Under the pieces are notes generated by a model that saw nothing but the letters and a program-made list of their open reading frames with translations, was not told the origin of the DNA and ran no database searches. 64,000 nt of DNA from Lysobacter solisilvae. Lineage in GTDB: Bacteria > Pseudomonadota > Gammaproteobacteria > Xanthomonadales > Xanthomonadaceae. This document shows positions 1,940 through 9,748 of the stretch, one piece after another. The DNA lies in contig NZ_CP071518.1 of assembly GCF_016613535.2 (NCBI RefSeq), forward strand, positions 3,596,001 to 3,660,000. The letters are read 5' to 3'. Each line of letters starts with the position of its first letter. Position 1 is the first letter of the stretch. Made by a program: the position numbers and the translations under genes.

Positions 1940-4030
1940 ATGAGCGACCAAGTCCCCGCGGACGCAACGTCCGTCAAGTTCACCGACCTGTCCCTGCCCG
2001 AACCGCTGCTGCGGGCACTGACCGACGTCGGCTACGAGTCCCCCTCCCCGATCCAGGCCGCGACCATCCCGCCCCTGCTGGCCGGGCGCGACGTGCTGGG
2101 CCAGGCCCAGACCGGCACCGGCAAGACCGCCGCCTTCGCCCTGCCGATCCTCGCCCGGATCGACCCGGCCCAGGCCAGGCCCCAGGCCCTGGTGCTGGCA
2201 CCCACGCGCGAACTGGCCATCCAGGTCGCCGAGGCCTTCCAGAAATACGCCACCCACCTGCCCGGCTTCCATGTGCTGCCCATCTACGGCGGCCAGAGCT
2301 ACACCCCCCAGCTGGCGGCGCTCAAGCGCGGCGTCCAGGTCATCGTCGGCACGCCCGGGCGCGTGATCGACCATCTCAACCGCGGTTCCCTGGACCTGTC
2401 GCAGCTGCGCTGCCTGGTGCTGGACGAAGCCGACGAGATGCTGCGCATGGGCTTCATCGACGACGTCGAGGCCGTGCTGAAGAAGATCCCGGAGACCCGC
2501 CAGGTGGCGCTGTTCTCGGCCACCATGCCGCCGCAGATCAAGCGCATCGCCACGACCTACCTGCGCGATCCGGTCGAAGTGGCGATCAAGAACACCACCA
2601 CCACCGCCGCCAACATCCGCCAGCGCTACTGGGCCGTGAGCGGGGTGAACAAGCTCGATGCGCTCACCCGCATCCTGGAAGCCGAGCCGTTCGACGGCAT
2701 GATCGTGTTCTCGCGCACCAAGCTGGGCACGCAGGAGCTGGCGGACAAGCTGTCCGCCCGCGGCATCTCCGCGGCCGCCATCAACGGCGACCTGGACCAG
2801 AAGGCCCGCGAGCGCACCATCGCCCAGCTCAAGGACGGCAAGATCGACGTGCTGGTGGCCACCGACGTGGCCGCCCGCGGCCTGGACGTGGAACGCATCA
2901 GCCACGTGCTGAACTACGACATCCCCTACGACACCGAGAGCTACGTCCACCGCATCGGCCGCACCGGCCGCGCGGGCCGCAAGGGCGAGGCGATCCTGTT
3001 CGTCGCCCCGCGCGAACGCGGCATGCTGCGGGCCATCGAGCGCGCGACGCGCCAGCCGATCGAGCAGATGTCCCTGCCGACGGTGGAGACGGTCAACGAG
3101 CAGCGCGTGTCGAAGTTCCTCGGCCGCATCACCTCCGCGCTGGAAGCCCCCGACCTGGCGATGTTCCGCGACCTGGTCGAGCGCTACGAGCGCGAGAAGA
3201 ACGTCCCCGCGGTGGAGATCGCCGCCGCCCTCGCCAAGCTGGTCCAGGGCGAGATGCCGCTGCTGCTGCAGGCCATGGCCGAACAGCTGCGGCCGCCGCA
3301 TCGCGAGAGCGGTGCCTACAGCGGCGCCCGCGAAGGCGGCTTCCGCGAAGAAGGGCCCCGCGGCGGCTCGCGCGACGGCTTCCGCGAGTCCGGCCGCGAC
3401 GGCGGTTTCCGCGACAAGGGTCCGCGGGACCGTCCGGCGCGCGACGCCGACCGGCCGCGCGGCTTCGACCGCGACGCCGAGCGCCCGCGCCATGCCGACC
3501 GCGTGCCGCCGCGCTCGCCCGATACCTTCGCGCCACCACCCCGGCAGGACGCACCCCGCTACGACGCCCCACGGCACGACGCACCCCGCCATGACGCGCC
3601 GCCCGCGCAGTTCGCACCCAGCGGGCACAACGCCGGCGAGGGCTTCTTCGCCGACGACGCGCCGCCCGGCCCCAGCCGGCCGCGCGAGGAGCGCGCACCG
3701 CGTGGCGCGCCGGAAGCCGGCATGGAGACCTTCCGCATCGAGGTCGGCCACGTGCATGGCGTGAAGCCGGGCAACATCGTCGGCGCGATCGCCAACGAGG
3801 CCGAGCTGGAAAGCCGCTACATCGGCCGCATCGACATCCGCGACGACTTCAGCCTGATCGACCTGCCCGAAGGCATGCCGCGCGAAGTCATGGAGCACCT
3901 CAAGCGCGTGCGCGTGGCCGGTCAGCCGCTGCGCATCAGCCGTCCGGGCGAGGACGGCGGCCCGCGCCGGGCGCCCGGCATGGGCGGCCCGCGTCCGCCG
4001 CATCGCGGCGGGCCGCGCAAGCCGCGCTGA
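1940..4030 (+). CDS. deaD: DEAD-box ATP-dependent RNA helicase with DbpA-type RNA-binding domain
   Basis: A 696-residue helicase of the DeaD/CsdA type, which unwinds RNA during ribosome assembly and mRNA turnover, especially in the cold. Motifs in order: Q motif (SPIQAATIPP, about residue 35), Walker A AQTGTGKT (about 55), PTRELAIQV, DEAD in VLDEADEM (about 162), SAT (about 193), VATDVAARGLDV and HRIGRTGRAGR (about 337). The C-terminal domain from about residue 595 (TFRIEVGHVHGVKPGNIVGA) matches the DbpA RNA-binding module. Between about 455 and 595 is a low-complexity, R/D/G/P-rich linker with RDGGFRD and tandem DAPRHD units, likely disordered. The ATG has GAGG nine bases upstream. The gene is monocistronic by position; the next rightward gene starts at 5908. 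Confidence 0.95.
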   Translation: MSDQVPADATSVKFTDLSLPEPLLRALTDVGYESPSPIQAATIPPLLAGRDVLGQAQTGTGKTAAFALPILARIDPAQARPQALVLAPTRELAIQVAEAFQKYATHLPGFHVLPIYGGQSYTPQLAALKRGVQVIVGTPGRVIDHLNRGSLDLSQLRCLVLDEADEMLRMGFIDDVEAVLKKIPETRQVALFSATMPPQIKRIATTYLRDPVEVAIKNTTTTAANIRQRYWAVSGVNKLDALTRILEAEPFDGMIVFSRTKLGTQELADKLSARGISAAAINGDLDQKARERTIAQLKDGKIDVLVATDVAARGLDVERISHVLNYDIPYDTESYVHRIGRTGRAGRKGEAILFVAPRERGMLRAIERATRQPIEQMSLPTVETVNEQRVSKFLGRITSALEAPDLAMFRDLVERYEREKNVPAVEIAAALAKLVQGEMPLLLQAMAEQLRPPHRESGAYSGAREGGFREEGPRGGSRDGFRESGRDGGFRDKGPRDRPARDADRPRGFDRDAERPRHADRVPPRSPDTFAPPPRQDAPRYDAPRHDAPRHDAPPAQFAPSGHNAGEGFFADDAPPGPSRPREERAPRGAPEAGMETFRIEVGHVHGVKPGNIVGAIANEAELESRYIGRIDIRDDFSLIDLPEGMPREVMEHLKRVRVAGQPLRISRPGEDGGPRRAPGMGGPRPPHRGGPRKPR

Positions 4031-4165
4031 ATCCTGCGCGCCCTCCCGCATCGCGGGCGGGCGCCTTCCCGGCGTTTCTACTTCGCCGGCGCGGCCGGGC
4101 CGGCCAATGCCGGCACCCGCCGGCCGGCCAGGCCCGTGCGCATCACCGCTGCCGAACCGGTGACC

Positions 4166-4318
4166 TCACGCCGGCCAGGGCAGCCCCAGGTGCGGCGCCA
4201 GCAGCCAGTACAGGCCGAACAGCACCAGCGCCCACATCGCCAGCTTGAGCACGAAGCCGGCGACCTTGAAGGCGAAATACAGGCCGAGAACGATCAGGAT
4301 GATGCCAAGCCAGCTCAT
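4166..4318 (-). CDS. Small single-segment hydrophobic membrane protein (50 aa)
   Basis: A 50-residue ORF, MSWLGIILIVLGLYFAFKVA at the N-terminus and ending HLGLPWPA. It is almost wholly hydrophobic: one long or two short membrane segments around a central Lys. ATG 4318 is preceded by GGAG at five-base spacing. It lies 68 bp downstream of the dimethylargininase gene on the same strand, so the two may be co-transcribed. Tiny membrane proteins like this are widespread in related genomes and have no known function; I do not assign one. Confidence 0.65.
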   Translation of the reverse strand: MSWLGIILIVLGLYFAFKVAGFVLKLAMWALVLFGLYWLLAPHLGLPWPA

Positions 4319-4386
4319 GCGGACTCCGTTGCCCATGCGATGTCCGGGAGCGTAATCCGCGGACGGTGAAGTTGCGCTTGCCGCGC

Positions 4387-5160
4387 TCAGGCCGCCGCTT
4401 CGGCGAACACCAGGCTGCAGCAGGTGGTGGCGCCCTCGGCCTTCTGCAGTTCCGATACGTCCACCGTCACCACGTCGATGCCGGCATCCACCAGCCGCTG
4501 GTGCGTGCGCGGGAAGCCCGCGGGCATCACCACGCTGTCGCCGATGCGCAGGATGTTGGCGGCGTGTTCCTCGGACGGATCCACCTCGATGACGGTGAAG
4601 CCGGGGAACGAGGCGGCATCGACCCAGGCCGGCTGCAGCAGCAGGGTGTCGTCGCGCACCGCGGTGACGGCCGACTTCAGGTGCAGGCAGCCGCGGATCG
4701 GCACGGCGCGCACGGCGTAGCCGGACTGGCCCGCGAGTTTCGCCAGCTGCGCGATGCCGTCGGCGTTGCTGCGGCCGGACTGGCCGACGAACAGGGTGTG
4801 CCCGACCCGCAGGACGTCGCCGCCATCCAGCGTGCCGGGCGCCTCGATCGAACGCAGCGGGCGGTAGCGCGCCAGCAGCTCGGCGACGCTGGCGCCCTCG
4901 GCGCGGCGCGAGGCGGCGCCCGGCCGGGTCATGATCGCCACGTCGTCCAGCACCACCGCCACGTCCTCGACGAAGACCGCGTCGGGCATGTCCGGCTCGG
5001 CCTCCAGCGCCAGCACGCGGCACCCCAGGCTGGCCAGGGCGCGCTGGTAGGCGCGGTGCTGCGTCTGCGCACGTTCGATGTCGATGGGACTGCGCGCCAC
5101 GTGGGTGAGCTGGCAGTCGGCCAGCGTGGGACTGACGTCGCGGGTGATGGCGATGGGCAT
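4387..5160 (-). CDS. Dimethylargininase / NG,NG-dimethylarginine dimethylaminohydrolase (DDAH) family
   Basis: A 257-residue amidinotransferase-fold enzyme. Family members hydrolyse methylated arginines to citrulline plus methylamines; close paralogues can be arginine deiminase-like. Support: FVEDVAVVLDD (about residues 63-73, substrate-binding acidic loop), GTLDGGDVLRVG, RGCLHLKSAVT (catalytic His, about 160-170) and the near C-terminal nucleophile region in ATTCCSLVF. Start chosen at MPIAITRDVSP because this is where similarity begins. The same frame stays open upstream through the repeat array to 5934, which would add about 258 repeat-derived residues; I regard that as artefactual. No convincing Shine-Dalgarno sequence precedes ATG 5160, so the start is only moderately secure. 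Confidence 0.88.
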   Translation of the reverse strand: MPIAITRDVSPTLADCQLTHVARSPIDIERAQTQHRAYQRALASLGCRVLALEAEPDMPDAVFVEDVAVVLDDVAIMTRPGAASRRAEGASVAELLARYRPLRSIEAPGTLDGGDVLRVGHTLFVGQSGRSNADGIAQLAKLAGQSGYAVRAVPIRGCLHLKSAVTAVRDDTLLLQPAWVDAASFPGFTVIEVDPSEEHAANILRIGDSVVMPAGFPRTHQRLVDAGIDVVTVDVSELQKAEGATTCCSLVFAEAAA

Positions 5161-5253
5161 GGCGGGGACTTGAATGGAGGGAGCCGGCGGCGGATGCGCG
5201 CGCCGGCCGTTCCACGATAGTGCCGGCTGCGGGCGCTGGGAAGCGGCCCAGGG

Positions 5254-5833
5254 CCTTCCGGAATGTTCCCCGGTCTTCCGGAATCCACTTCGGGTGTTCC
5301 GGAATCCATTTCTGGTCTTCCCGAATCCTCTGCGGTCTTCCGGAATCCGTTTCTGGTCTTCCCGAATCCTTTTCCGGTCTTCCGGAATCCACTTTTGGTC
5401 TTCCCGAATCCTCTGCGGTCTTCCGGAATCCATTTCTGGTCTTCCGGAATCCATTTTTCGTCTTCCCGAATCCGTTTTTGGTCTTCCCGAATCCTCTGCG
5501 GTTTTCCGGAATCCATTTTTCGTCTTCCCGAATCCTTTTTCGGTCTTCCCGAATCCTCTGCAGCCTTCCGGAATCCTCCCCAGCCTTCCGGAATCCTCCA
5601 CAGCCTTCCGGAATCCTCCACAGCCTTCCGGAATCCTCCACAGCCTTCCGGAATCCTCCACAGCCTTCCGGAATCCTCCCCGGCCTTCCGGAATCCTCCC
5701 CAGCCTTCCGGAATCCTCCACAGCCTTCCGGAATCCTCCCCGGCCTTCCGGAATCCTCCCCGGCCTTCCGGAATCCTCCCGGGTCTTCCGGAATCCTCCG
5801 CAGCCTTCCGGAAGCCGCCCCGGTCTTCCCCTA
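5254..5833. repeat. Phased 20-21 bp tandem array of TTCC(G/C)GAA cores, 28 copies
   Basis: Core octamers start at 5256, 5276, 5297, 5318, 5338, 5359, 5380, 5401, 5421, 5442, 5463, 5484, 5504, 5525, 5546 and then every 20 bp from 5566 to 5806, followed by a degenerate copy at 5826. The left half (to 5546) has T-rich linkers, spacing of 20 or 21 bp and a mix of TTCCGGAA (palindromic) and TTCCCGAA cores, with a higher-order period near 83 bp (5338, 5421, 5504). The right half is near-perfect 20-bp repeats with linkers of the TCC(A/C)CAGCC type, suggesting recent expansion. It fills the intergenic space between the divergent dimethylargininase and flavoprotein genes. No stop codon falls in it, so all six frames are open. 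Function unknown. Confidence 0.95.
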
Positions 5834-5892
5834 CCCCCGCACGCCTCCAGCCCGGCCCGCGCGCCCTCCTCGCCCTGCCCGCCCCCGGCTCG

Positions 5893-5898
5893 CATAAT
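5893..5898 (+). promoter_or_regulatory. Candidate -10 element just upstream of the flavoprotein start
   Basis: CATAAT (5 of 6 matches) ends ten bases before ATG 5908. If used, transcription would start at about the ATG, giving a leaderless or near-leaderless mRNA, consistent with the absence of a Shine-Dalgarno sequence. No -35 match is visible. Confidence 0.3.
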
Positions 5899-5907
5899 CC
5901 CCACCCC

Positions 5908-7149
5908 ATGTCGCCCTCCTCCCCCGCGCTCCACTCAGTCGCCATCGTCGGCGGCGGCCCCGCCGGCCTGATGGCGGCCGAGGTCGCGCGCGCGGCCGGG
6001 CTGGAGGTGGACCTGTTCGAGGCCAAGGGGTCGGTGGGCCGCAAGTTCCTGATCGCCGGCAAGGGCGGTTTGAACCTGACCCACGGCGAGGACCGGCCCG
6101 GCTTCGATGCGCGCTATGGCGCGCGTGCGCCGGAGGTCGCGGCCTGGCTCGACGACTTCGACGGCGCCGCGCTGCGTGCGTGGGCCGCCGGCTTCGGCAT
6201 CGACACCTACGTGGGCACCTCGGGCCGCGTGTTCCCGATGGATCGCAAGGCCGCGCCGCTGCTGCGCGGCTGGGTGCGCCGCCTGCGCGACCAGGGCGTG
6301 CGCTTCCATGTGCAGCACCGCTGGACGGGCTGGAACGAGGACGGCAGCCTGCGTTTCGAAACGCCTGACGGCGCCCGCGCGGTGCACGTCGCGGCGACCG
6401 TGCTCGCGCTCGGGGGTGGCAGCTGGCCCGAACTGGGGTCGGACGGCGCCTGGGTGCCATGGCTGCGCGACGCCGGCATCCAGGTCGCCGCGCTGCAACC
6501 GTCCAACTGCGGTTTCGACATCGACTGGACCGCGCACTTCCGCGATCGCCACGCCGGCGCGCCGCTCAAACCGGTCGTCGCCCACTGGCAGGAGCTGGAC
6601 GGCCAGTGGCAGTCGCTGCAGGGCGAATGCGTGGTCAGCGCGCACGGCATCGAGGGCAGCCTGGTGTACGCGCTGTCGGCGACGCTGCGCGAACTCATCG
6701 AGCGCGATGGGCTGGCGCGCCTGGAACTGGACCTGGTGCCCGGCCGCGAGCTCGACCGGCTGCAGGCCGACCTGGCGCAGCCGCGCCGCGGGCGCAGCCT
6801 CAGCGAACACCTGCGCCGGCAGGCCGGCGTGACCGGCGCCAAGGCCGCGCTGCTGTACGAAGTGCTCGCCCGTCCGCAGCTGGAGGAGCCCGGCCGGCTG
6901 GCGGCGACGCTCAAGCGCCTGCCGCTGGTGCTGCGTCGGCCCCGTCCGATCGAGGAAGCCATCAGCAGCGCCGGCGGCGTGCGGCTGGAAGCGCTGGACG
7001 ACACGCTGATGAGCCGCACGCGTCCCGGCGTGTTCTGCGCCGGCGAGATGCTCGACTGGGAAGCGCCCACCGGCGGCTACCTGCTGACGGCGTGCTTCGC
7101 CAGCGGCCTGCGCGCCGGACGCGGTGCGGTGGCGCTTCTGCGTCGCTGA
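5908..7149 (+). CDS. NAD(P)/FAD-dependent oxidoreductase, HI0933/YhiN-like (TIGR03862-type flavoprotein)
   Basis: A 413-residue flavoprotein. The N-terminal dinucleotide-binding motif is VAIVGGGPAGLMAAEVARA (about residues 11-29) with the acidic end of the second strand at VDLFEAKG. The family signature GRKFLIAGKGGLNLTH follows, then VLALGGGSWPELGSDG (about 160-175), a helical middle domain, and the C-terminal FAD-contact segment FCAGEMLDWEAPTGGYLL. The HI0933/BaiN family is broadly conserved, but the physiological substrate of this branch is not established. The chosen ATG is the first giving a normal N-terminus; the frame continues upstream through the repeat array to 5263, adding repeat-derived residues with no family similarity. 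Confidence 0.88.
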   Translation: MSPSSPALHSVAIVGGGPAGLMAAEVARAAGLEVDLFEAKGSVGRKFLIAGKGGLNLTHGEDRPGFDARYGARAPEVAAWLDDFDGAALRAWAAGFGIDTYVGTSGRVFPMDRKAAPLLRGWVRRLRDQGVRFHVQHRWTGWNEDGSLRFETPDGARAVHVAATVLALGGGSWPELGSDGAWVPWLRDAGIQVAALQPSNCGFDIDWTAHFRDRHAGAPLKPVVAHWQELDGQWQSLQGECVVSAHGIEGSLVYALSATLRELIERDGLARLELDLVPGRELDRLQADLAQPRRGRSLSEHLRRQAGVTGAKAALLYEVLARPQLEEPGRLAATLKRLPLVLRRPRPIEEAISSAGGVRLEALDDTLMSRTRPGVFCAGEMLDWEAPTGGYLLTACFASGLRAGRGAVALLRR

Positions 7150-7221
7150 GCCGCCGCGTGCGCGGCGTGGCAAGGCGTCGGGCGTCGCGACAGGAAGAGA
7201 ACTTCGGCCCGCGCGGCTTCG

Positions 7222-8058
7222 CTACGCCGACCGCCGCCCCGACACCACCGGCACATGCCACACCGCGTAGTGCGGCGGCGTTTCGATGGCGTGGATGATG
7301 CTGTCGAAATCGCGGCGCACCGCGGCTTCAGGACGCTGTGAGGCCTGCGCCAGCACGCCGGTGTAGCCGTCCCGCCATGCACGCAGGATGCCGCCGAAGG
7401 TCGGGCGCGCGACGCGCAGGGTGTCCACGGTCAGGAAGTCCATGGCGATGTCGGTGAAACCGGCCGCTTCCAGCAGGGCCGGTGAATGCCGGCCGACGCG
7501 GCCATCGCAGCCGATGGAATCCAGGTACGCAACCGCGTTGCGGTTCCAGAACGCGTCGGGATCGAACGGGCCGTCCTCGCGCGCGATCACCGGCATGTGC
7601 AGCATGCCGTAGTCCTCCGAGAGCAGGTGCAGCCAGCCCGCGGGCCGCAGCACGCGGCGGATTTCCTTCAGCACCAGCGGGAAATCCGGCACCGCCTGCG
7701 ACATGTGGCGGCAGACGACCAGGTCGAAGGACGCGTCGGAATACGCCAGCGCGAAGGCGTCGCCCTGCGCGTACTCGATGCGCTCGGCGTACGCGGTGCT
7801 GTCGCGCCGCGCCAGCGCGAGATTGCCCTCGAGGATGTCGACGCCCACCAGCTGCGCCTGCGGATAGCGCTGCGCCAGGCGGCGGGTGATCTCGCCCGTG
7901 CCGCAGCCCAGGTCGAGGATGCGCAGCGCGCCGTCGAGACCGTAGCGGTCGAACAGCGGCGCTTCCTGCGGCCAGATCGCCTGCGCCTGGTGGGCCAGGT
8001 TGCGGGCCATGGACTCGTCGCCCATCTGCTCGGCCTGCGGATTGCGGTCCTCGTGCAT
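7222..8058 (-). CDS. Class I SAM-dependent methyltransferase
   Basis: A 278-residue protein with a complete Rossmann methyltransferase core: motif I ILDLGCGTGEITRRLAQ (about residues 47-63), motif II acidic residue in LVGVDILEGNL, the GDAFAL segment, motif IV in FDLVVCRHMSQAV and motif V in IRRVLRPAGWLHLLSED. This resembles UbiE/COQ5-like methyltransferases; the substrate cannot be read from the sequence. The start at MHEDRNPQAEQ is chosen because upstream codons run into the palindromic repeats at 8169-8445, which merely keep the frame open to 8556. It converges with the flavoprotein gene (72-bp gap). Confidence 0.82.
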   Translation of the reverse strand: MHEDRNPQAEQMGDESMARNLAHQAQAIWPQEAPLFDRYGLDGALRILDLGCGTGEITRRLAQRYPQAQLVGVDILEGNLALARRDSTAYAERIEYAQGDAFALAYSDASFDLVVCRHMSQAVPDFPLVLKEIRRVLRPAGWLHLLSEDYGMLHMPVIAREDGPFDPDAFWNRNAVAYLDSIGCDGRVGRHSPALLEAAGFTDIAMDFLTVDTLRVARPTFGGILRAWRDGYTGVLAQASQRPEAAVRRDFDSIIHAIETPPHYAVWHVPVVSGRRSA

Positions 8059-8168
8059 GGGGGACTCCACCGGGGCATCAGGACGATGGTAACGCCGCCC
8101 AAATGGCGCCGCCCGCGAACACGGTGCGGCGCCGCCGGGTGGCGGCCGGTCGCGCCGACCGCCCACCT

Positions 8169-8191
8169 CATAGGGCGGGTCTTGACCCGCC
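8169..8191 (+). repeat. Single REP-like palindrome
   Basis: A stand-alone copy of CATA followed by the near-perfect palindrome GGGCGGGTCTTGACCCGCC. It is the same 23-bp element that appears paired at 8223-8290 and 8378-8445. Confidence 0.85.
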
Positions 8192-8222
8192 GGCCCTGGC
8201 GGCGCCGCGCCAACCCGCAATC

Positions 8223-8290
8223 CATAGGGCGGGTCTTGACCCGCCGACGGTGGCGGCGTCGCGGGGTGGCGGGTCAAGACCCGCCCTATG
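8223..8290. repeat. REPIN-like composite: two inverted REP palindromes
   Basis: A 23-bp REP at 8223-8245 and its inverted copy at 8268-8290 flank a 22-bp GC-rich centre, forming a 68-bp inverted repeat bounded by CATAG and CTATG. It matches the second composite at 8378-8445 at all but one position (T versus C in the centre). This inverted-pair structure is that of REPINs, non-autonomous elements moved by RAYT (TnpA-REP) transposases; no RAYT gene is present in the window. Confidence 0.85.
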
Positions 8291-9175: not shown

Positions 9176-9216
9176 CGCGGAATTTTAGCGGGTCGGATCG
9201 GACCGGGCTGCGTCGA

Positions 9217-9748
9217 TTCGTAGGCTGGGTTGGCCCCATCAACCCAGCCCGGCGCGGAAAGCGCTGGGTCGATGAAGCCGACCCAGCCTACGCAGCTGGC
9301 TGGCGATGAACGCATGGCGCTCGCGGGCGATTCGTAGGCTGGGTTGGCCCCATCAACCCAGCCCGGCGCGGAAAGCGCTGGGTCGATGAAGCCAACCCAG
9401 CCTACGCAGCTCGCTGGCGATGAACGCATGGCGCTTGCGGGCGATTCGTAGGCTGGGTTGGCTCCACCAACCCAGCCCGGCGCAGAAAGCGCTGGGTCGA
9501 TGAAGCCGACCCAGCCTACGCCGCTGGCTGGCTATGAACGCATGGCGCTCGCGGGCGATTCGTAGGCTGGGTTGGCCCCATCAACCCAGCCCGGCGCGGA
9601 AAGCGCTGGGTCGATGAAGCCGACCCAGCCTACGCCGCTGGCTGGCGATGAACGCATGGCGCTCGCGGGCGGTTCGTAGGCTGGGTTGGCTCCATCAACC
9701 CGGCACGCGCGAGCAGCACTGGGTCGATGGGGTCGACCCGCCTGCGGG
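9217..9748. repeat. 114-bp tandem repeat, five copies (last degenerate)
   Basis: Units begin at 9217, 9331, 9445, 9559 and 9673, exactly 114 bp apart. Each contains an inverted repeat, CGTAGGCTGGGT pairing with ACCCAGCCTACG (first copy: 9219-9230 with 9281-9292), enclosing smaller GGGTTG/CAACCC and AGCGCT palindromes, plus a non-palindromic 36-bp spacer that is repeated too. The first four copies differ at only a few positions; the fifth diverges after its first third. The block fills the gap between trhO (upstream side) and the 3' end of the sigma factor gene. Because 114 is divisible by three, one frame is open with a 38-residue period; I do not consider it a gene. Confidence 0.95.

Follow-up and report, generated by a model that had tools for sequence, protein, structure and literature searches.

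The window analysed here, a stretch of 64,000 nucleotides of Lysobacter solisilvae DNA (positions 3596001-3660000 of a 3.93-Mb genome in one contig), carries an array of 28 TTCC(G/C)GAA cores, and cores of the same type, TTCSSGAA, form an array 3' of a gene for a small protein in the same genome. That protein belongs to a family of helical proteins of ~155 amino acids, which we label X155. Genes of this family are paired with arrays; the arrays are dispersed, have distinct dyad cores and a step of about two helical turns, and show no covariation. We consider it probable that each X155 protein, alone or as part of a complex, reads a phased duplex array of its own, both in cis (beside its gene) and in trans; binding and function are here predicted from the features of genes and arrays.

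X155 genes and their 3' arrays

Flanks of 520 bp on the 3' side of X155 genes and of other genes were scored by one array-finding procedure at lags 12-32 (loci are denoted by L and a number). The X155 loci comprised up to 30 best matches returned plus hand picks and are not a random sample; from 55 loci we dropped four duplicates (L190, L206, L227 and L246) and two broken or partial copies (L207 and L240), which left 49. Within Xanthomonadaceae, 34 of these 49 3' flanks scored above 86.7, the highest value in a set of 141 control 3' flanks. The first gene caller, on which this set relied, was poor; a second set, drawn after retraining of the caller, comprised 154 flanks, of which 57 had at least 150 bp intergenic, and gave the same maximum (86.7) and the same count (34/49). 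Control flanks overlapping the arrays that defined loci were left out of both draws (36 in the redrawn set). The best lag was 21 in 32 of the 34 flanks above the threshold, and the consensus unit was dyad-symmetric in 31 of them (column permutation p<0.05). On the 5' side, one of the 49 flanks (L239) exceeded 86.7.

The cores differ between X155 paralogs. On the 3' side, we found GCTCGGnnnnCCGAGC (L234), GCCAAACGnTGGG (L233), AAGGCTcaaAGCCTT-like cores (L232), GAGGCTCGGAGCCTC (L216) and CCGAGCTTTTTGCTCGG (L250); on the 5' side, GACGCnCGCGTC (L239) and, at a step of 43 bp, TGTCGCGACATATG...CATATGTCCGGACA (L236). The more alike two X155 proteins are, the more alike their cores tend to be (Mantel r=0.34, p=0.0002, n=34). 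Five TTCSSGAA arrays lie 3' of an X155 gene, L041 in the genome of the window and L190, L195, L197 and L199. The X155 gene with the core of the window array is located at 3565987-3566448 of the genome (minus strand), ~35 kb upstream of that array and outside the window; on the basis of the common core, it is the putative cognate gene of the window array.

X155 was found in 50 of 149 genomes of the family, often as several paralogs. There are 12 matches in the L. solisilvae genome, some of them pieces, and five in Pseudoxanthomonas gei; nine paralogs of L. solisilvae show 27-54% pairwise identity. Among open reading frames (ORFs) within ~1.5 kb of the 49 X155 genes, no neighbour family recurs in more than five loci (blastp E<=1e-10), and therefore the array is the sole frequent companion of X155 that we saw. 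One broken X155 at 313936-314380 of the genome (L240), whose two adjacent pieces were matched separately, has a trans array with cores of the CTCGGnnnnCCGAG class at a distance of ~3.3 kb.

The proteins could not be placed in a known family by the searches made. Pfam assigned no family to the X155 query at E<=1e-3, and none of 31 members gave a significant match; with the cutoff relaxed to E<=1, one of these members scored ParB CE at 0.041, which is not significant, although remote relatives could escape such a search. NCBIfam returned no match, nor did the PDB sequence search at E<=1e-3 (best 0.19). A defence or phage origin was considered and rejected: five members of the family had no match in PADLOC and no significant one in PHROG, no relative was confirmed in viral_contigs, and the best match in a viral fold library had E 0.75. 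Plasmids yielded one distant relative only.

The array in the window

The array and its two blocks are as follows.

5256-5813, + strand: phased array of 28 TTCC(G/C)GAA cores, a trans array without an adjoining X155 gene (core scan, Tandem Repeats Finder [TRF])
5256-5553, + strand: left block, 15 cores with 20/21-bp spacing, 83-bp units and 10.37 bp per turn (spacing analysis, TRF)
5546-5813, + strand: right block, 14 cores (the first common with the left block) spaced at exactly 20 bp (spacing analysis)

The cores are 21 copies of TTCCGGAA and seven of TTCCCGAA, and every core-to-core step is 20 or 21 bp, so that the count and spacing proposed in an earlier note on this DNA, made by a model from the sequence alone, were borne out by the core scan, shuffles and TRF. 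The two-core pattern gave 42 matches in the window (both strands counted) versus none in 100 dinucleotide-preserving shuffles. TRF reported a period of 20 with 28.2 copies (5255-5829) and, as the note had said of the left half, a higher-order unit of 83 bp (3.9 copies, 5272-5596), the left spacings being mostly 20+21+21+21. A chance origin was rejected on the results of the shuffles, the reversed pattern and other spacings. The note had also called the octamer palindromic; TTCCCGAA is not itself a palindrome, and the motif of the family is TTC-S-S-GAA.

Helical phasing, which the same note had extended to all cores, is limited to the left block. For the left 15 cores, phasing is strongest at 10.37 bp per turn (R=0.98), whereas the last 14 cores (one common with the left block) have a 20.0-bp step and R=0.21 at 10.5 bp per turn, and this part drifts off one face of the helix. 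Because of the exact 20-bp step of the right block, the whole array reaches R=0.38 at 10.5 bp per turn; its best value is 0.63. Linkers in the left block are of two kinds, A/T-rich ones of 13 nt and G+C-richer ones of 12 nt. Those in the right block are near-identical, of the TCCTCCACAGCC type, in agreement with the homogeneous 20-bp repeats noticed before, and the right block is probably a recent expansion.

TTCSSGAA arrays in the genome and in other species

The two-core TTCSSGAA pattern occurs 128 times per strand in the genome (reversed control, 0), the equal count on both strands being due to the near-palindromic motif. The cores are grouped in ten arrays, each with 14-28 units; their total is 207 when imperfect cores, which the chain parser admits, are included. 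Isolated cores at L035, L039 and L040 were left out of the array count. The array in the window is therefore not a local minisatellite but one of ten in the genome. One of the ten is a cis array (L041) and nine, the window array among them, are trans arrays. Their 21-bp unit is G-NN-TTCSSGAA-NN-C, with both outer letters conserved at 0.99. Across the ten arrays, linkers of the 20-bp step (n=100) are G+C-rich (0.66, CTCCACAG type) and those of the 21-bp step (n=94) are A/T-rich (G+C 0.39). These two linker alphabets are seen throughout the arrays of this genome (L031-L042 and the window), often combined as 20+21+21+21 = 83 bp.

Trans arrays were also searched for with two further cores. That of L234 (up to 3 mismatches) has arrays at 310361, 1066640 and 3247659 besides the one at its own gene (3487805), and that of L233 has arrays at 67676, 1269226, 2355174 and 3895366 besides its own (2627859), both with a control of 0. 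Together, the three core classes amount to 19 arrays in this genome. Clustering near the start of the contig was considered and rejected (12 of 19 within a quarter of it, p=0.36). At ~3540-3840 of L039 (genome 2831000-2838000), an array of ~22-bp period carries dyads of GCTTTGAAGC/GCTTTAAAGC and ATTGGGGAAT; the surrounding 7 kb gave no X155 match. This array may belong in trans to an X155 paralog without a cis array (L235 or L238).

The earlier note had proposed a search of related genomes for such arrays, and its outcome was mixed. Of 297 genomes of the family, eight (L. solisilvae included), belonging to 6 of the 54 genera, had the three-core pattern, with a control of 0 in all; two congeners had no match, whereas seven genomes in five other genera did. 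The array-bearing relatives include P. gei, P. yeongjuensis, Lysobacter sp. Root690, Lysobacter sp. CFH 32150 and Lysobacter sp. 5GHs7-4. A variant with 22-37 bp spacing was matched in one of the 297 genomes, which had no 20/21-bp matches and in which the hit was a heptad repeat, and in none of the eight; at this spacing, the reversed control also gave matches in one genome (G296, 2 per strand). In 16 arrays fetched from other species, the gaps are 21 bp in 139 of 144 cases, 20 bp in two and 42 bp in three. The 12 of these arrays with at least six 21-bp units have core arms conserved at 0.91-1.00 and linker positions at 0.50-0.81, a contrast that is partly built in, since the pattern and the parser select such cores and steps. 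At P. gei L188 and P. yeongjuensis L194, the flanking proteins are the same and both have an array, with different linkers.

These data bear on the view that the arrays are selfish or neutral satellite DNA, spread by slippage, duplication and recombination without function, with X155 at most aiding propagation. Three arrays of this genome (L032, L033 and L041) are whole-array paralogs with a similar unit order, homogeneous 20-bp blocks occur, and the distribution in the family is patchy, with none in the two congeners. On the other hand, linkers in other species have diverged widely while core and 21-bp step were kept (in part an effect of the parser), and core and step kept with linkers lost are a binding-site signature rather than a slippage signature. 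The association with the 3' side of one gene family in distant bacteria (see below) is also at odds with a satellite, and a purely neutral minisatellite, one of the candidates of the earlier note, leaves the X155 association unexplained. We regard the satellite explanation as unlikely.

Outside the family, phased 20/21-bp TTCSSGAA arrays were observed in Bacillaceae (L068, L071, L077, L079, L085, L088, L105, L121, L123, L130 and L138), in Lentibacillus, Robertmurraya, Perspicuibacillus, Metabacillus and Bacillus methanolicus; their linkers are mostly diverged and in L068 identical.

Genomic placement of the arrays

With retrained gene calls, all of 33 arrays (26 TTCSSGAA and seven of the two other classes) are intergenic. 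The calls were retrained on a few seed genes judged sound, only three of them seen in Pfam (the DEAD-box, DDAH-type and HI0933-like genes of the window), and the ORF overlap of L034, L038, L189, L192 and L195 under the first gene caller was gone after retraining. A coding repeat can be rejected; the array in the window is open in several frames, yet the mixture of 20- and 21-bp steps shifts the frame, and the 33 arrays lie outside genes. Thirteen of the arrays lie in convergent gaps, 15 in tandem and 5 in divergent ones, whereas the 99 other gaps with a length of 100 bp or more divide, in the same order, into 10, 64 and 25. The convergent enrichment, also to be counted for the satellite explanation, has p=3.5e-4, a value that is somewhat optimistic because the set holds one orthologous pair and five cis arrays; the divergent depletion is not significant (p=0.34).

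The window array itself lies between two divergent start codons, a minority position among the arrays. Pfam confirmed the identity of both flanking genes as given in the earlier note (a dimethylargininase and a flavoprotein):

4387-5160, - strand: ADI/DDAH-type hydrolase gene, start 96 bp from the array, neighbour only (Pfam PF02274, PF19420)
5908-7149, + strand: HI0933-like flavoprotein gene, start 95 bp from the array, neighbour only (Pfam PF03486, PF22780)

This location is what a regulatory platform or variable-length promoter spacer serving the two genes would call for, and the note had listed such a role. As a general role it is unsupported, given that divergent gaps hold few of the arrays, the same core class is present in convergent gaps, and the proteins encoded on either side are rarely the same from one array locus to another. 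We consider this explanation highly improbable.

Two other repeats were seen in the window, a tandem 114-bp unit at 9214-9743 (4.7 copies, 93% matches by TRF) and, at 8140-8257, a hairpin-like dispersed element around GGGCGGGTCTTGACCCGCC, which is in tandem there. The GGGCGGGTCTTGACCCGCC element also occurs at ~3955-4050 of L042, adjoining another phased array.

Pairing tests: duplex or RNA

A dyad may be read as duplex DNA or fold as RNA. If the array were the 3' region of an X155 transcript, its dyads would be tandem hairpins, for example of a sponge, and trans arrays would be further sponges. Consistent with this, the arrays are mostly 3' of the gene, and several cores could fold with loops of 3-5 nt, such as CCGAGC-TTTTT-GCTCGG in L250; cores such as TTCCGGAA, in contrast, leave no loop. 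In 34 cis arrays, compensatory double changes numbered 47 versus 42.0 +- 5.2 on reshuffled letters, and hairpins as the main constraint were rejected because compensatory changes were at chance level. Among mismatches of these arrays, G.T (166) was somewhat above A.C (128), 26 of the G.T coming from L243 alone. Linkers of the L. solisilvae arrays show no more pairing than after shuffling (p=0.34). Those of other species paired above shuffled at one of three offsets (0.306 vs 0.270, p printed as 0.000 with 1000 shuffles) and below shuffled at another (0.355 vs 0.397). Rfam gave no match at the gathering threshold over 4000-7300 of the window. On balance, the pairing tests favour duplex dyads that would be read by a protein, and an RNA element seems quite unlikely.

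X155 relatives beyond Xanthomonadaceae

Homologs were retrieved from Thiodictyon, Methylomagnum, Nostoc and Cylindrospermum. Hypothetical proteins resembling X155 in the latter three genera include P0198, P0212, P0222 and their relatives. With profile A1 or the Thiodictyon protein as query, 2 of 249 Pseudomonadota genomes matched, both inside the family. Profile A3, built with the homologs from the four genera, was run on 30 genomes picked from 80 listed loci (at least 118 stretches) holding TTCSSGAA arrays, a biased sample, and found X155 relatives in nine of them, including Chitinophagaceae, Treponema, Tannerella, Prevotellaceae, Planctomycetaceae and Aminicenantes. The 26 extra-family loci were reduced to 22, L305 being a duplicate of L301 and the 3' flanks of L295, L297 and L303 being too short. 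Fifteen of the 22 3' flanks, in six of the nine genomes, scored above 86.7. By comparison, none of 23 5' flanks did so; of 209 windows drawn at random from contigs of this sort, two did, and these came from a single Methanosarcina contig. Above-threshold arrays were found in metagenome-assembled genomes (MAGs) of Tannerella, Prevotellaceae, Aminicenantes and Planctomycetaceae and in two further ones; Treponema (77), Chitinophagaceae (30) and one Bacteroidetes genome (87, just below) had none. The X155 copies of the Planctomycetaceae MAG look Bacteroidota-like and may be contamination.

The remaining 21 of the 30 array-holding genomes showed no X155 relative at E 0.001, nine Bacillales genomes among them (L068, L071, L077, L079, L104, L105, L121, L138 and L139). 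The presence of phased TTCSSGAA arrays is therefore not enough to infer X155; those of Bacillales possibly have a different partner or are a convergent array type.

A predicted protein-DNA address system

We propose that each X155, or a complex containing it, binds its own array as double-stranded DNA, and that neighbouring bound units would interact about every two helical turns. The cis array may feed back on the complex or nucleate it, and trans arrays would be sites to which the complex is recruited, mostly away from promoters. The array in the window would then be a trans copy, having its TTCSSGAA core in common with the array 3' of the X155 gene ~35 kb upstream. Of the possible roles, chromosomal addressing or bridging (to cluster or mark loci) is the most likely, ahead of promoter control. 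More tentatively, in several groups of bacteria one chromosome may hold several orthogonal, self-labelling protein-DNA address families, in which each X155 paralog would assemble on its own helically spaced array and cluster its cis and trans arrays, a counterpart of satellite DNA with its own binding proteins; we hold this extension to be doubtful.

Several observations weigh against recognition of the arrays by X155. In the family, 15 of the 49 X155 3' flanks were below the threshold (L213, L214, L220, L221, L222, L226, L229, L230, L231, L235, L236, L238, L239, L247 and L249; highest score 63.9), of which L236 and L239 have a 5'-side array and L230 has one by TRF only. The two lowest scores of the 34 other flanks, 86.9 and 88.5, are narrowly over the control maximum. 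Outside the family, seven of the 22 flanks were below the threshold, the 3' flank of the Thiodictyon relative is not periodic, and both the bias of the 30-genome sample and the arrays without an X155 relative in 21 of its genomes have to be counted here. The correlation between X155 and core may come partly from cis arrays inherited with the gene. Arrays with a mean spacing of 20.0 or 21.5 do not hold one helical face, and one offset of the other-species linkers showed the pairing excess reported above. Finally, the structure model of X155 (predicted local distance difference test [pLDDT] 89, predicted template modelling score [pTM] 0.68) is helical, one helix being 53 residues long. The PDB search gave no match for it at E<=0.001, and no solved protein was closely similar; the mean net charge is ~-1.

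Together, the results lend partial support to the overall interpretation in the earlier note. Its candidate of a cooperative binding platform is the direction that we favour: dyad core and step were kept while linkers diverged, X155 appeared as a companion gene family, and hairpin covariation was not seen, from which binding itself is predicted. What is tied to the array in distant bacteria is a family without assigned function, and the core of the array changes with the paralog. If the protein reads its array, X155, a small protein for which no fold relatives are known, would provide a natural series of different DNA-binding specificities. It would also reveal a genome-wide addressing layer, overlooked since a hypothetical protein and an intergenic repeat each look dull alone. 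The pairing may further explain a class of 'minisatellites' that have been dismissed as noise. In the literature searched, mostly outside subscription papers and preprints and seen as listings and the beginnings of abstracts, we found no description of the gene-array pairing.

Comparison with known systems

Type III toxin-antitoxin systems such as ToxIN have a small protein gene with a 5' array encoding an RNA of ~36-nt repeats. X155 loci resemble them in that a small protein gene adjoins a tandem repeat array. Unlike theirs, the X155 array is mostly 3' and has a repeat of ~21 bp, RNA covariation in the 34 cis arrays is at chance level, and the five family members searched had no match in PADLOC.

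Repetitive extragenic palindromic (REP) sequences and bacterial interspersed mosaic elements (BIMEs) are dispersed intergenic palindromes, often near the 3' ends of genes, and are associated with REP-associated tyrosine transposases (RAYTs). All 33 arrays are likewise dispersed intergenic palindromes. The units of X155 arrays, however, stand head-to-tail at ~21 bp without compensatory pairing, and Pfam gave no transposase domain in X155 (no search of the genome aimed at RAYTs was made). A term search in the main text of a recent REP survey gave no occurrence of Lysobacter, Xanthomonas, tandem or '21 bp' (PMC12306157).

In layout, X155 loci resemble partition (centromere) and iteron loci. ParB-parS, ParR-parC and iteron-Rep systems have a small protein gene beside short helically spaced repeats, dyad or direct, and the sites of parS and of Noc/MatP are multi-site families. 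Similarly, the X155 gene lies beside an array of regularly spaced sites (34 of 49 loci within the family and 15 of 22 outside it), binding to which is predicted, and the multiple trans arrays recall the site families of parS or Noc/MatP. X155 differs in having no match by Pfam, NCBIfam or PDB sequence and no recurring neighbour such as ParA; no ParA/ParM/TubZ nucleoside triphosphatase (NTPase) appeared as a recurring neighbour family at the 49 loci, whose neighbours were not annotated singly. Because there is neither a ParB/ParR-type sequence match nor a recurring NTPase neighbour, we do not file X155 arrays under partition systems; nor do we place them with REP elements or type III toxin-antitoxin systems. 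A further difference from partition systems is that several different gene-array pairs are present in one chromosome here. The gene family and its cognate array look like a new kind of paired protein-and-DNA-address system.
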